A DNA stretch of 64,000 nucleotides. Origin: Alistipes sp. (GTDB lineage Bacteria > Bacteroidota > Bacteroidia > Bacteroidales > Rikenellaceae). The stretch is taken from assembly GCA_017937125.1 (NCBI GenBank), contig JAGBEH010000001.1, positions 248,001 to 312,000 on the forward strand, given 5' to 3'. The notes beneath the pieces were generated by a model, which was not told the origin of the DNA, searched no databases, and saw nothing but the letters and a program-made list of their open reading frames with translations. Positions within the stretch are counted from its first letter, which is position 1. The number at the start of each line of letters is the position of its first letter. Made by a program: the position numbers and the translations under genes. This document shows, in pieces, positions 43,670 to 49,810 of the stretch.

Positions 43670-43701
43670 TTTGTGTAATTACATATTTTGTATTATATTT
43701 G
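43670..43701 (+). promoter_or_regulatory. full Bacteroidota promoter for the ATPase gene
   Basis: TTTG at 43670-43673 and TATATTTG at 43694-43701, 20 bases apart, match the TTTG/TAnnTTTG consensus and lie 27 bases before the ATG at 43728. Confidence 0.7.
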
Positions 43702-43727
43702 CTGCAAAGAAACTAAAAACAGGCACT

Positions 43728-44861
43728 ATGGAAACTCCTTTTATCTTTGGAAAAATCGCAACAGAGAAGAATTTTACAGACCGAGAGATGGAAACTGCAA
43801 ACTTGGTCCAGAACTTCACATCGCTTATCAATACGATTATTATCTCCCCTCGTCGTTGGGGCAAGAGCTCTCTTGTGAACAAAGCCGCAAAGTTGGCAAT
43901 GGAGCAGGATAACAAGTTGCGTATATGTCATATAGACCTCTTTAATGTGCGCAATGAGGAGCACTTCTACTCTTTGCTTGCACAGAAGGTTATCGCTGCG
44001 ACATCAACCAAGTGGGAGGAGGCTGTAGAGAATGCAAAAAGCTTTTTCTCGCACCTTGTGCCAAAGATCTCTATTGGTACCGATCCCACAAATGAGGTGG
44101 CAATAGATTTCGATTGGGACGAAGTAAAGCGCAATCCAGACGAGGTGCTTGATCTTGCTGAGAAAATCGCACAGAAGAAAGGACTCAAAATTGTGATTTG
44201 CGTTGATGAGTTCCAGAATATAGCAGAGTTTGCCGATCCTGACTATTTCCAGAAGAAGTTGCGCTCGCATTGGCAGCAGCATCAGAGCGTTGCATATTGC
44301 CTTTATGGTAGCAAGCGCCATATGATGTTGGAGGTGTTCACTCACTCGTCTAAACCATTCTATAAGTTTGGCAACCTGATGTTCCTTGACAAGATTGAGA
44401 CGCCATATCTTGTGGAGTTCTTCAATAGCCGATTTGAGGATACGGGCAAGCGAATTGATGAGGATGCAGCCCACTTAATCGCAGAACTTGTAGACAACCA
44501 TCCTTATTACGCACAGCAGTTGGCACAGCAGTCATGGTTAAGAACAAAGGATGTGTGTACCATTGAAATTGTCCGCGAGGCACACGCCGCATTGGTAGAG
44601 CAGTTGAGTTTGTTGTTTGTAACAATTACCGAGACTTTGACAACGCAGCAACTTAACTACCTTAAAGCTCTTATTGCGGGCGAAAAGGCGATCAGTTCTA
44701 CTGATGTGATGCACCGCTATCAAATATCATCGCCGACATCTGTGGCTCGCTCAAAGGCGGCTCTAATCAAGAATGATATTTTGGATAACAAGGCTGGCGA
44801 GATCTCGTTCCAGGATCCTATCTACGCTTACTGGTTGAAGACGGAGTATTTTGCTAAGTAG
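43728..44861 (+). CDS. P-loop ATPase (ATPase_2 / archaeal-type AAA) protein
   Basis: This 377-residue protein has the Walker A loop SPRRWGKSSLV at about 42-52, Walker B IVICVDEFQN, a sensor-like YGSKRHMM and a C-terminal winged-helix segment (ITETLTTQQLNYLKALIAGEKAIS). This fits the ATPase_2 (PF01637) STAND-like group. Similar ATPases occur in defence islands and mobile DNA. The ATG at 43728 is chosen as it follows the promoter; the longer upstream frame includes non-coding-like sequence. It is 21 bases before a DUF2971 gene, suggesting an operon. Confidence 0.75.
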   Translation: METPFIFGKIATEKNFTDREMETANLVQNFTSLINTIIISPRRWGKSSLVNKAAKLAMEQDNKLRICHIDLFNVRNEEHFYSLLAQKVIAATSTKWEEAVENAKSFFSHLVPKISIGTDPTNEVAIDFDWDEVKRNPDEVLDLAEKIAQKKGLKIVICVDEFQNIAEFADPDYFQKKLRSHWQQHQSVAYCLYGSKRHMMLEVFTHSSKPFYKFGNLMFLDKIETPYLVEFFNSRFEDTGKRIDEDAAHLIAELVDNHPYYAQQLAQQSWLRTKDVCTIEIVREAHAALVEQLSLLFVTITETLTTQQLNYLKALIAGEKAISSTDVMHRYQISSPTSVARSKAALIKNDILDNKAGEISFQDPIYAYWLKTEYFAK

Positions 44862-44882: not shown

Positions 44883-45761
44883 ATGTACTTATATGGCAAC
44901 ACAATGATCCCTATGGTTGGCGATGGTTTCCTATATCACTTTACTTCAGCGAACTCCTTAATGCTGATCTTGCAAGAGATGAGGCTGAAACTATCTAACT
45001 TTTCGAATCTTAATGATTTAAATGAAACAGACTTGTGTTGTGAATGGAGCGATGGCGGCTTTGATGCAATAAGGATTAAACAATACATAATAGAACACTG
45101 CAAACTCATCTCTTTTACGCAAAATTACTATGAAGGCGAGCCTCGTCTTTCGTCTGTACAATTAGGAGGCAACCATGCTAGAATGTGGGCGCAATATGCT
45201 GCAAATAATAGCGGAGCTTGCATTGTTATTAATGAGCAAAAATTCATCGAGGATAATAAATCGATACTCAAGAATAGTTTTTACAGATTTGAAAATGTGG
45301 AATATAGCAGGAATCTGTATGATGAAAAAATTTGTACAACATCTATTCCTTCTGAATTTGTCAAAGATAATTATAAGCACATCTTCTTTAAAAAACATAT
45401 AGACTGGGAGCGAGAACACGAGCGTCGTTTTTTCGGTATTGATATGCCCGAATATTTATCGATTCTTAATTCAGTAGAGTTTATATGCTTAGGACAATAT
45501 TTTATAACGAATAAGTCAAGTATGAGAACGTTGATAGAAACTCTCATCACTCCACTATCAAAGTGCTCGAAAATACTCACTCCTCATGATTTTGTTGTAC
45601 AAGCAAATAGGGATGGACGGTGTGTCCCCATTACTTTTGCACATGGCATTATTGATGGCGTGAAAATTCTGAGACAAGATTCAGATTCTTATATACGCAA
45701 TTTAAATGCAAGGGGCTATGATATAGATGTAGAAAAGAATCCAATGATGAGATATTTCTAA
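44883..45761 (+). CDS. DUF2971-family protein
   Basis: This 292-residue protein resembles the DUF2971 family: FLYHFTSANSLMLILQEMRLKLSNFSNLNDLNE at 16-48, FTQNYYEGE and NHARMWAQYAANNSGACIVI, and EREHERRFFG. DUF2971 proteins recur in phage-defence and abortive-infection regions, and their chemistry is not established to my knowledge. It lies 21 bases after the ATPase and 85 before the first reverse transcriptase, all on plus. Confidence 0.7.
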   Translation: MYLYGNTMIPMVGDGFLYHFTSANSLMLILQEMRLKLSNFSNLNDLNETDLCCEWSDGGFDAIRIKQYIIEHCKLISFTQNYYEGEPRLSSVQLGGNHARMWAQYAANNSGACIVINEQKFIEDNKSILKNSFYRFENVEYSRNLYDEKICTTSIPSEFVKDNYKHIFFKKHIDWEREHERRFFGIDMPEYLSILNSVEFICLGQYFITNKSSMRTLIETLITPLSKCSKILTPHDFVVQANRDGRCVPITFAHGIIDGVKILRQDSDSYIRNLNARGYDIDVEKNPMMRYF

Positions 45762-45846: not shown

Positions 45847-47271
45847 ATGATCTTAAATGATATGCTAGACCAGTCATTCTCTGCACATAATATTGAGACA
45901 ATATATTGCCTTGAAAGTAGAAGGGGTAATATAGACATTCATTCTATGCCTGAACAGTATCGTGATATTTTGACGCGTTCTGAGGAACTTAAGCGAGAAA
46001 TAACATCTCTAAAACAAAAGAAAGGGAAGACTCAAGAAGATCTCTCAATAATTAAAAACAAGAGAGAAGAATACAAGCGTTTAGTTGGCTTGAAGAAAGA
46101 TGTATTATGTGAATATCTAGCAACTTTAGAACATGACATAAATAAGCCAGGCTTCAAATTTAAGTTGAGATCATATACTACATCAGAAAACAAGGAGGTA
46201 TTCACACTTGATACACCTACTCATGCTCACCTATTTGCCATAAAACAGTTACAATACAATATCCGACACGCATTTAAGGTCAAGCAGGATAATCGGCATA
46301 GTATTTTAACCAATATCAAGGCCTTCTTAAACTCAAATATTCCAGTTTACATTATTAGGACAGATATCTCAAAATTTTATGAATCTATCCCGCAAGATAA
46401 GTTAAAGCGAATGATTCTAGATAACACGTTACTTTCTAACAAATCCAAATCTTTTATAAGTGGAATATTGGTAGAGTATGAGAATGTTAAAGATGCAACA
46501 TTAGCAGCCCCTATGCACGGAGTACCTCGAGGTATAGGCATTAGTTCTTATTTGAGTGAATTATATATGAGAAACATTGACTCTGAAATTTCGAGTAGAA
46601 GAGAAGTAATGTTCTATGCCAGATATGTGGATGATATTTTTATCATTCTTTCATCATTGCCATCAGGGAAAAATTTAGGCGATTATTATGCAGATATCAC
46701 TGATTTATTTCAAAAAAATGCTCTATCGTTGAAACAACCTCAAGATCCTTCCGGGAAGTGTCGCATTATAGATTTTACACAAGATAATCATACGGAATCT
46801 TCAATGAATTATCTTGGATATAGTTTATATATGAGCAGAAATAAAGAGCATTTATCCACTACATTTGGGTTGTCAGATAAAAAGAAAGACAGATACTGCA
46901 AAAAAATCGATAAAGCTATAACCCATTTTGAAACTTTAAGCAAATGCAATATCAAACAGGCTTATCAAGACTTGTTTGATTCGTTGAATATAATAACTGG
47001 TAATTTTAAACTATTCAAATCTAAAAGTGGAGTCAAGGTCGGATTATATTATCATAACGATTTACTAGATTGTTTGAATGATCTAGATGAGCTTACAAAC
47101 TATTTGAGAAAACATACAATTAATCCATATGTAGGATTGAAAGATTGTGATGTTATAAAAGCTAAAATTGAAAAACGTATTGCAAATATCGATTTTAAAC
47201 AGAGGTGGCTAGACCGCAAAATGTTTACATTCAACATTCATCGTATTCAAGAAATAGAGAAATGGCTATGA
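45847..47271 (+). CDS. drt3a: reverse transcriptase, DRT3-type first RT (UG3-like)
   Basis: This 474-residue protein has RT core motifs: IIRTDISKFYESI near 168-180 with the first catalytic Asp, PMHGVPRGIGISSYLSEL near 222-239, and the metal-binding YVDD at 260-263 (YARYVDDIFIIL). An N-terminal coiled segment (about 40-85) precedes it. No maturase or endonuclease domain follows, so it is not a group II intron RT. It overlaps the next RT by four bases (ATGA). Two adjacent RTs of this kind define DRT type 3 (UG3 plus UG8), which fits lengths and order. The assignment rests on architecture, not on a database search. Confidence 0.7.
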   Translation: MILNDMLDQSFSAHNIETIYCLESRRGNIDIHSMPEQYRDILTRSEELKREITSLKQKKGKTQEDLSIIKNKREEYKRLVGLKKDVLCEYLATLEHDINKPGFKFKLRSYTTSENKEVFTLDTPTHAHLFAIKQLQYNIRHAFKVKQDNRHSILTNIKAFLNSNIPVYIIRTDISKFYESIPQDKLKRMILDNTLLSNKSKSFISGILVEYENVKDATLAAPMHGVPRGIGISSYLSELYMRNIDSEISSRREVMFYARYVDDIFIILSSLPSGKNLGDYYADITDLFQKNALSLKQPQDPSGKCRIIDFTQDNHTESSMNYLGYSLYMSRNKEHLSTTFGLSDKKKDRYCKKIDKAITHFETLSKCNIKQAYQDLFDSLNIITGNFKLFKSKSGVKVGLYYHNDLLDCLNDLDELTNYLRKHTINPYVGLKDCDVIKAKIEKRIANIDFKQRWLDRKMFTFNIHRIQEIEKWL

Positions 47272-49525
47272 GAAGAAAAAAGATAAGATTACGTTATAAA
47301 AAAGAGCGTGTTGTATTCTCTGACGTATTACCATATGAACTACCGCTTATATTTAGCAACCGTTACTTCTATAAGTTTCTTGTTAAAAATGGTATTCGGC
47401 TTGAGTTCGGAGCCAATGATAAAAACACATTACATTGGAATCTTACCAGTGATAATGGTATTCTTGGAATACTATCTATAATTTTTAACCGACCTATTGA
47501 AGACTTTAAAGGCAGAAATTCTTTATCACTTAATGTATATGATCTTAAAAGGATCCCATTTGTGTATGGCATTCCAACATAAACCTCTAAAACATCGATA
47601 TTTGTCATTAATACATCCAGCCAACCAAATAAAAGTTGTCGAATTTTATAACAAGTACAAGGATGCAATAATTTATCTCTGTAACAAAAGCAATTTTTCT
47701 ATTCGTTTTCCCAATAAAGTAGCATGTTATTTTTATTATAAGGACAGACTCCATAATGTGTTATTGGGCAAGAAAACAGATAAGGTGGAGATGTATTTTA
47801 GTGAGTATGAGAATTTAAAAACCTTTTTTAGTTATAAACATTACACCAACATCTATAAATTTTATGAAGATTATAGATATCAACGAGCAGAGAAGAAATT
47901 TGCTCATTTATTAAAAATGGATGTACAATGTTGTTTTGATAGCATATACACTCATTCAATAGCCGTGGGCTATTAGCGGAGGTGTCGATATCTACAAAGA
48001 TAGTTTTAATGGCAAATTTGATGGTTCAATTGGAGCTCATTGGGACAAGATGATGCAAGAAATGAACTATAATGAAACCAATGGTATTGTTATCGGGCCA
48101 GAGTGTTCACGTATATTTGCAGAGGTTATTATGCAGCATGTGGATCATATGGTAGAACAACAACTATTAGAAAAAGGATACCGACACAAAGTAGACTATG
48201 AATGTTATCGTTATGTCGATGACTATTTCTTTTTTTATAATGATGACGCTGTAAAAAAAGAGGTTGAGTATTTATTGCAATTTTATCTAAAGGAGTTTAA
48301 GTTAAGTCTTAACCAAGAAAAGTGTGAGATCATAGATCGTCCATTCATAACTAACATAACAAAAGCTAAAATTGAGTTAGATGAGCTATTAAATGATAAT
48401 ATCAAATTATATTCAGAAGATGTGGAATCCTCTGTTTATTCAGAAGATGAATTAGAGCAAACCGAATTAGACTTATCAGAAGATAAAGATGAATGGACGA
48501 TAGAAGTCGACAGAAATACTGCTGTCGAAAATATAGATAAAAAAGTATTTTTCAAATTAAACTCAACGGACTTTAATAAGAGATTCAAAGCAATTGTATC
48601 TACTAGTAATGTAGAGTTAATAAGCGTTTTAAACTACACTATGGCTCGATTTGCAAGCAGACTAGAACGATCTTTGAAAAAATTTGATAAGCATTATAAA
48701 GTATTATGTCTTATAGCTGAGGATCCCCAATTAGTAGACCTGCATGCACTGGCTAATAAAGAAAGAAAAAGATGTGAGAAATCACTTTCGAGGTATCTGT
48801 TTAATGTTTTAGATACAGTATTCTTTTTATATGCAAATAGTAAGCGTGTAAACACGACCCTTAAAGTTATCCAGATATTAAATACAATTAGGATATATTT
48901 AGACAATGATTATTGCATTGAGGATGGGAATAACAAAAAAGTTGTACGTAGATTTTCTGAATATGCAAGAGAAATCGTATTCAAAAAAATAAGAGATGAG
49001 ATTAGTGTAGTTATGCAAGTTGCACCAGTGAATGAAAACATACAGTTGGAAACACTGTATTTTCTCATCGTACTGCGTAGCATGAATCGTAAATATCATT
49101 TAACAAGATTAGAAGTAGAAAAATATCTCAAGATTGAAAGAGGCACTGACGGTTCTATCAAACCTTTACGTCAATTAAACATGTTGGCCGTAACAATTCT
49201 AATATATTACTTTGGGAATTCAAAACGCTATGAAGAACTTAAAACACTCTTAATTGAGCAAACTCGACAATATATTGAATCAATCTATGAGCCAAGGCGT
49301 AAAATATCAGCGGAATTTGTTATATTTGCATTGGATTTGGCAGCATGTCCATACATTCAGGATAGTATTAAAAAGAAGTTTCTTCAGCAGGTAGGTGTAT
49401 CTAGGCGTATTAGTGAAGAAATTATATGTTATATGAAACGACAAAAATTTATGTTTACAAAGTGGGCAGGCATTGATATAACAAAAGAACTAAATGCAAA
49501 AATTAGTCAAGAAGTCTATTCTTGA
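47268..49525 (+). pseudogene. drt3b: second DRT3-type reverse transcriptase (UG8-like), broken by two +1 insertions
   Basis: Three consecutive open frames together encode one RT of about 751 residues. Frame 1 ends at 47582; an extra A near 47576 breaks IPFVYGIP from HKPLKHRYLSLIHP. Frame 2 ends at 47976; an extra base near 47963-47965 breaks THSIA from WAISGGVDIYKDSF. Frame 3 continues to 49525. RT motifs are KMDVQCCFDSIYTHS and YECYRYVDDYFFFY, with YVDD at 48212-48223. The start ATG overlaps the drt3a stop. As read, the gene cannot make full protein without frameshifting. Sequencing error is the alternative explanation. Confidence 0.7.
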
Positions 49526-49539
49526 TTATGTTTGCGCCC

Positions 49540-49650
49540 AAACATACATAGGGTACAGAGCTCAAAGACATTTCACACACATAACCCTATGTTCGACTTA
49601 TGAGGTCTTTTATATCAAGAGCCCAGGGCTCGGGCTCTTGATTTCTTGTC
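49540..49650 (+). ncRNA. candidate DRT3 non-coding RNA with ACACACA loop
   Basis: Right after drt3b, ACATAGGGT (49546-49554) pairs with ACCCTATGT (49584-49592) around a 29-base loop that contains ACACACA at 49575-49581. A second strong stem, 11 bp, pairs 49614-49624 with 49632-49642. AAAGAC in the first loop (49565-49570) can also pair with GTCTTT (49605-49610), suggesting a pseudoknot. No coding frame is present. An AC-repeat template in a structured RNA beside a DRT3 pair fits the idea, as I recall it from published work, that Drt3a copies such a template into GT repeats. Confidence 0.55.
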
Positions 49651-49810
49651 AATAGTCTCATCTACCATATAAGAATACAATTCTATGTAATGGCCTACAA
49701 AAAGCACAGTTTAAATATGTGCAAAATTAATATGCCTATTGTCCCTAAAATTTTATGAATTTATCCATACATAGCTTATATATTTGCGAATTCTGTATAA
49801 AGAGCAACTA

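Follow-up and report, generated by a model that had tools for sequence, protein, structure and literature searches.

In the EcoDRT3 system, as given in the main text of PMC13174585, a noncoding RNA (ncRNA) located downstream of drt3b has a loop with the motif ACACAC, from which Drt3a makes poly(dTdG) by copying; synthesis of poly(dCdA) by Drt3b proceeds without any nucleic-acid template and is primed by Tyr 666 and gated by E22 and R241. Alteration of the ACACAC motif abolished both defence and poly(dTdG), and the published covariance model of the ncRNA was seeded with EcoDRT3 and its close kin (main text of PMC13174585). Structured elements beside a template are described in the text of PMC12632851 for DRT10, in which SL5 lies just upstream of the template and is suggested to set its 5' boundary, and for telomerase RNAs, in which a stem-loop or a pseudoknot serves as the template boundary.

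The DNA analysed here is a stretch of 64,000 nucleotides (the window) from an Alistipes sp. genome assembly of 2.16 Mb in 12 contigs. On its + strand, positions 49546–49642 carry an element that, on comparison of sequences, we identify with high confidence as a compact form of the DRT3 template RNA, DRT3 being an anti-phage system. The locus is like that of EcoDRT3, as far as the text cited above describes the latter, in the order drt3a-drt3b-ncRNA, in the ACACAC loop after drt3b, in the closing stem and in the Drt3b residues that serve in dA/dC gating and in priming from Tyr.

The DRT3 locus and the state of drt3b

The + strand genes are arranged in the order ATPase, DUF2971 gene, drt3a, the pieces of drt3b and the RNA element, which is followed by convergent genes including two for metallophosphoesterases:

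43671–44861, + strand: ATPase gene
44883–45761, + strand: DUF2971 protein gene, directly upstream of drt3a
45847–47271, + strand: drt3a, UG3-type reverse transcriptase, 474 aa, YVDD (PADLOC Drt3a, E 7.6e-93; Pfam RVT_1)
47268–49525, + strand: drt3b, UG8-type reverse transcriptase, frame-broken (three consecutive parts of the PADLOC Drt3b profile)
47205–47582, 47497–47976 and 48050–49525, + strand: open pieces of drt3b
49546–49642, + strand: compact DRT3 template ncRNA, predicted core P1 to P3 (covariance-model match and compensatory changes)

A preliminary description of the element, made from the sequence alone, had placed it beside a DRT3 pair, and the adjoining genes are indeed drt3a and drt3b by PADLOC. 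The Drt3a ORF contains the reverse transcriptase active-site motif RYVDD expected of DRT3, and the protein matches 9z6y_A ('Drt3a reverse transcriptase protein') at E 1.4e-15 (phmmer). The PDB entries 9z6y/9z6z, labelled Drt3a/Drt3b and, judging from these labels, presumably the system of Deng et al. 2026, share with the window the two-reverse-transcriptase composition of DRT3. The DUF2971 protein, also present in locus L004, matches the PADLOC candidate PDC-S31 (E 1.1e-12), and its gene may be an accessory gene.

The closest named relative of the locus is L004, from a Muribaculaceae MAG of goat caecum, with a Drt3a 96% identical to that of the window and 91.3% identity across a 6.8-kb alignment. 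For comparison, DRT3 loci (numbered with L) were drawn from whole genomes, plasmids (8 fetched of 15 records with a Drt3a match), E. coli chromosomes (3 fetched of 22 genomes with a match) and viral contigs. DRT3 is sparse: within the window's family, 3 of the 268 genomes gave a Drt3a match (E <= 1e-40), and in the order sample 5 of 393 gave a Drt3b match (E <= 1e-60). Drt3a had no match in the phage records searched, in which matches to Drt3b-like reverse transcriptases were partial and confined to 5 records; the viral contigs gave none with Drt3a and 10 loci with a Drt3b alignment. The E. coli compact-form drt3b of plasmid locus L018 (5343–7386) is annotated as two hypothetical proteins, whereas its near-identical counterparts on chromosomes carry a single drt3b annotation.

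Drt3b in the window lies directly downstream of Drt3a, in the right order, but is spread over three frames, with two single-base frame breaks relative to L004, near 47.57 and 47.96 kb, whereas drt3b of L004 is an intact copy in a single continuous frame. The three pieces cover positions 3–65, 66–191 and 213–600 of the PADLOC Drt3b profile, with E values of 5.6e-14, 7.5e-50 and 1.5e-94, respectively. Letters matching E22, R241, YVDD and Y666 of EcoDRT3b are all found in these pieces (the positions of E22 and R241 being placed via the 26cz alignment), the C-terminus (...QEVYS) carries the priming-type Tyr, and E22, R241, YVDD and the C-terminal Tyr are invariant across 11 aligned Drt3b relatives. 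Since drt3b has two frame breaks, the DRT3 system of this genome is probably crippled, unless the breaks are sequencing errors.

It is a real possibility, although one that we favour less, that the locus is a decaying remnant and the RNA a fossil of a lost DRT3 system. The broken drt3b suggests this, as does L023 (6142–7632) from a second genome of this family, a decayed DRT3 locus in which drt3a is in three pieces and only 24 Drt3b residues match. In this genome, however, the RNA element and drt3a are intact, the ATPase, DUF2971 and drt3a proteins are each gap-free and in a single frame relative to L004, positions 49557–49693 are unchanged between the two loci, and the drt3b breaks, each of a single base, could be sequencing errors.

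The RNA element and its AC repeat

The core of the element is separated from the drt3b stop by 20 bases and consists of the following predicted parts:

49546–49554, + strand: P1 closing stem, 5' strand ACATAGGGT, pairing with 49584–49592
49555–49583, + strand: P1 loop, 29 bases
49558–49563, + strand: K, pseudoknot strand GAGCTC within the P1 loop, pairing with 49626–49631
49575–49581, + strand: putative template ACACACA (ACACAC behind drt3b in 41 of 42 loci)
49584–49592, + strand: P1 closing stem, 3' strand ACCCTATGT (9 of 9 Watson-Crick pairs)
49595–49607, + strand: P2 hairpin of 5 bp with a 3-nt loop (all 5 pairs formed in each of 8 sequences aligned by hand)
49614–49642, + strand: P3 hairpin, 11 bp, terminator-like (strands 49614–49624 and 49632–49642, 11 of 11 pairs)
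49626–49631, + strand: K', GGGCTC, in the P3 loop, partner of K

The 9-bp stem around a 29-base ACACACA loop and the 11-bp stem downstream, both put forward in the preliminary description, were found exactly at the positions listed for P1 and P3, and the 6-bp pseudoknot that it considered possible corresponds to K-K', which comprises 5 Watson-Crick pairs and one G-U pair in the window and is backed by covariation (see below). It had also named, for DRT3, an AC-repeat template copied into GT-repeat DNA, which agrees with the EcoDRT3 ncRNA as the main text of PMC13174585 presents it.

ACACACA occurs at 6 sites in the window (4 on the + strand and 2 on the – strand), and only at 49575–49581 is it enclosed in a loop no longer than 35 nt with a stem of at least 9 perfect pairs; no such site arose in 100 dinucleotide-preserving shuffles of the window. 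The fold of 49526–49660 has a z of –4.19, a value that none of 200 shuffles reached. From 7 relatives, the window and L004 being excluded, a covariance model was made that matches 49546–49640 at E 7.3e-15, the next best place in the 64 kb having E 0.34; since the model comprises just 12 pairs, with P1 not among them, the match rests largely on sequence likeness. With covariance model R1, only 6 of 25 loci were matched at E <= 0.1, five of them training rows and the sixth L004. Rfam gave no family at the RNA element and one sub-threshold snoRNA match at 49720–49788.

In the window, ACACACA begins 49 nt after the drt3b stop. Among the 42 loci with a readable Drt3b 3' flank, which include near-copies (e.g. 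the window and L004, L038 and L040, L018 and L045), 41 have ACACAC 24–221 nt after the drt3b stop, compared with 872 of 20,000 random 227-nt stretches of the same loci. L058 and L059 (partial reverse transcriptase matches), L060 and L041 (cut by its contig) are not among the 42. The repeat remains constant while its flanks change among loci. L030, with a divergent Drt3b, contains no ACACAC within 450 nt of 3' flank (downstream of 7352), and its template, if any, lies elsewhere or is different. In L026, L035 and L049, the sequence TGTGAAA is found further downstream of drt3b and is complementary to UUUCACA over the template; in this subgroup it could mask the template.

A sequence at 49527–49534, TATGTTTG, resembles what we take to be the Bacteroides –7 box, and a transcript from there would start just before P1. 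A box of this type was seen only in L004 among the relatives read by eye. Neither a sigma-70-type promoter pattern nor a full Bacteroides-type pattern was found at the RNA element.

Covariation and the two RNA forms

Across subgroups, MAFFT alignments put P1 and K in the wrong places, so covariation was counted on strands aligned by hand; for the same reason, the pairs in R1 are limited to P2- and P3-like ones. P1 pairs at 9 of 9 positions in the window, L038, L039, L027, L042 and L025, and is weaker in L004 (8/9), L022 (6/9) and L016 (4/9); in L004 the mismatch is uncompensated and the constrained minimum-energy fold lacks P1. K-K' pairs at 6 of 6 positions in 9 of 9 sequences, with changes on both sides at all six pairs (e.g. 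GAGCTC/GAGCTC in L038, GAACTC/GAGTTC in L039 and GTGCTC/GAGCAC in L027). P2 also shows both-sided changes among 8 sequences, and P3 pairs at only 4 of 7 positions in L022. Since the strands were aligned by hand, these counts lean towards structure, a bias from which the re-pairing control is free.

This control asks whether the strands of a helix fit better within their own locus than between loci, and was applied to 18 representatives, related loci among them, chosen from 26 compact loci. For P1, the sum for own pairings was 276 against 209.2 (sd 11.4). The corresponding values for K-K' were 264 against 216 (sd 10.4) in the version relied on, in which every hairpin loop of 6–12 competes; in both cases none of 20,000 re-pairings was as high. 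The first version of the pseudoknot control (one hairpin per locus, loops of 7–14) gave 231 against 182.5 (sd 9.6), again with 0 of 20,000. Among the 18 loci, the own value did not exceed the cross mean in L016, L026 and L053 for P1 (barely in L033) or in L026, L017 and L053 for K-K', and in some loci the best P1 run differs from the strand chosen by hand. Duplex energies of the whole 5' and 3' parts were also tried, and several cross pairs equalled the own pair in most of the 26 loci; as these energies were too noisy for the pseudoknot, the loop-restricted runs were adopted.

The place of ACACAC, together with a closing stem and a pseudoknot kept by compensatory change, argues for a DRT3 template RNA, and thus the candidate of the preliminary description is supported at the level of sequence; stems and AC repeat are conserved across homologous loci, which leaves the template reading standing. 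An ACACAC loop downstream of drt3b, by which a DRT3 ncRNA is recognized, is present here by sequence and by covariation.

In 24 loci tabulated by hand, K' always starts 41–55 nt after the template, and K ends 9–13 nt before it in 15 loci; in the other 9, K lies 22–51 nt before the template and the stretch between holds a hairpin (by fold or by eye). The narrow K'-template distance suits pairing within one RNA and speaks against the idea that K-K' is real but formed between RNA molecules, joining neighbours in a 6:6:6 Drt3a-Drt3b-ncRNA complex. We consider that arrangement improbable, even though covariation is blind to the difference between pairing within and between molecules, K and K' of L038 are the same palindrome GAGCTC, and a 6:6:6 complex, with central RNAs, is described in the text of a review (PMC13314766) and, as a 6:6:6 complex, in that of a commentary (PMC13213688), since among the 24 K strands only GAGCTC (window, L004 and L038) is self-reverse-complementary.

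That the element is a 3' untranslated region serving only as terminator or mRNA stabilizer of the operon, with an incidental AC repeat, can be nearly dismissed: it would suit the terminator-like P3, the position right behind the operon and the lack of sigma-70-type and Bacteroides-type promoter patterns at the element, but the repeat persists while the flanks change, P1 and K-K' covary, a changed motif cost EcoDRT3 both defence and poly(dTdG) (main text of PMC13174585), and in L023, where drt3b is nearly gone, ACACACA is absent from 16 kb, although only 0.6 occurrences are expected there by chance.

The RNAs could be divided into two forms. A tree of 39 Drt3b sequences places them on either side of one branch (100/99), with 25 loci on the compact side, in which the template lies 24–67 nt after the stop, and 14 on the long side, in which it lies 101–221 nt after the stop; the form changes once on the tree, against a mean of 11.6–11.7 when shuffled. 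The tree, in which the window is represented by its last open piece, left out L030, L041, L058, L059, L018 and L044, and the long branches L047, L050, L020, L019 and L045 were flagged. The long form (EcoDRT3 type) is defined by a template 91–221 nt after drt3b and several hairpins inside the closing stem. It keeps the closing stem (201 against 152, sd 10.4; 2 of 20,000 re-pairings; 10 loci), and a K-K' pairing of the compact kind was not seen in these loci (119.5 against 119.7, sd 6.0). With its template at 49 nt and a 29-nt loop without an inner hairpin, the window RNA is ruled out as a long form; it is of the compact form and sorts with one side of the Drt3b-tree branch.

EcoDRT3 differs in having a long-form RNA, on the other side of the branch, and compact-type K-K' is absent in the 10 long-form loci. 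The chain 26cz_A, which from its length and tag is presumably EcoDRT3 Drt3b, matches Drt3b of L046 at 1308.7 bits over all 667 residues; L046 is of the long form: its template lies 128 nt beyond the stop, and its closing stem encloses three hairpins in the predicted fold. The Drt3b chain 9z6y_H scores best with long-form L019 (377 bits; compact L045, 233) among five queries (window piece, L045, L020, L046 and L019), only one of which is a whole compact-form protein. Among the queries tried, both solved Drt3b proteins thus have their highest scores against loci of the long form, and the studied forms with a readable description therefore seem not to include the compact RNA.

A pseudoknot in DRT3 was not found in the running text of the literature searched: 'pseudoknot' is absent from the main text of PMC13174585, and 'kissing' from the DRT3 papers among the matches listed for DRT3 and ncRNA. 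The texts that combine DRTs with pseudoknots concern DRT2 (PMC12596737) and DRT10 (PMC12632851). To the extent of this search, a compact pseudoknotted form on one Drt3b branch appears to be new.

A proposed mechanism for the compact RNA

The RNA would be either the 3' part of a transcript that spans drt3a and drt3b or the product of a promoter located close to the drt3b stop. P1 would close the loop, leaving ACACACA single-stranded two bases before the P1 3' strand; this exposed loop very probably serves as template in the synthesis of GT-repeat DNA. By analogy with EcoDRT3, Drt3a would copy ACACACA repeatedly into poly(dGdT), the growing end being realigned on the AC repeat, and Drt3b would make the complementary poly(dCdA); we infer the compact RNA to work as the EcoDRT3 ncRNA does.

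The six-base K, just after the P1 5' strand, would pair with the P3 loop and so replace the inner hairpins of the long form. K-K' would then sit 5' of the template, on the side that the enzyme reaches once copying is complete, and it may place the template and help to bound it, like the telomerase boundary element and SL5 of DRT10. A conserved pseudoknot strand is present 5' of the template; a telomerase-like boundary would in addition have to stop copying. As described in the text of PMC12632851, the DRT10 ncRNA and telomerase RNA are alike in that a short repeat template is bounded by a structured element on its 5' side, but they belong to other reverse transcriptase systems with other templates, and for compact DRT3 such a role is suggested by analogy. 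The spacer of 9–13 nt between K and the template is long for a strict boundary and leaves this role in doubt; K-K' may only fix the fold.

We propose tentatively, at somewhat less than even confidence, that in one DRT3 branch (Bacteroidota, Escherichia coli and Zymomonas) the template RNA has been cut to about 100 nt and its inner hairpins have given way to a loop-loop pseudoknot by which the AC template is positioned and bounded, making it the bacterial equivalent of the pseudoknot or template boundary element in telomerase. The repeat DNA of DRT3 has two sources, a tiny RNA template and a protein, and the compact form shows how small the RNA part may be. The six-base pairing, which can be broken and restored, offers a handle on the way in which the template ends are set in a DRT, and the compact form is a search key for DRT3 loci that the long-RNA model may miss. 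It would also link DRT templates to the design of telomerase RNA.
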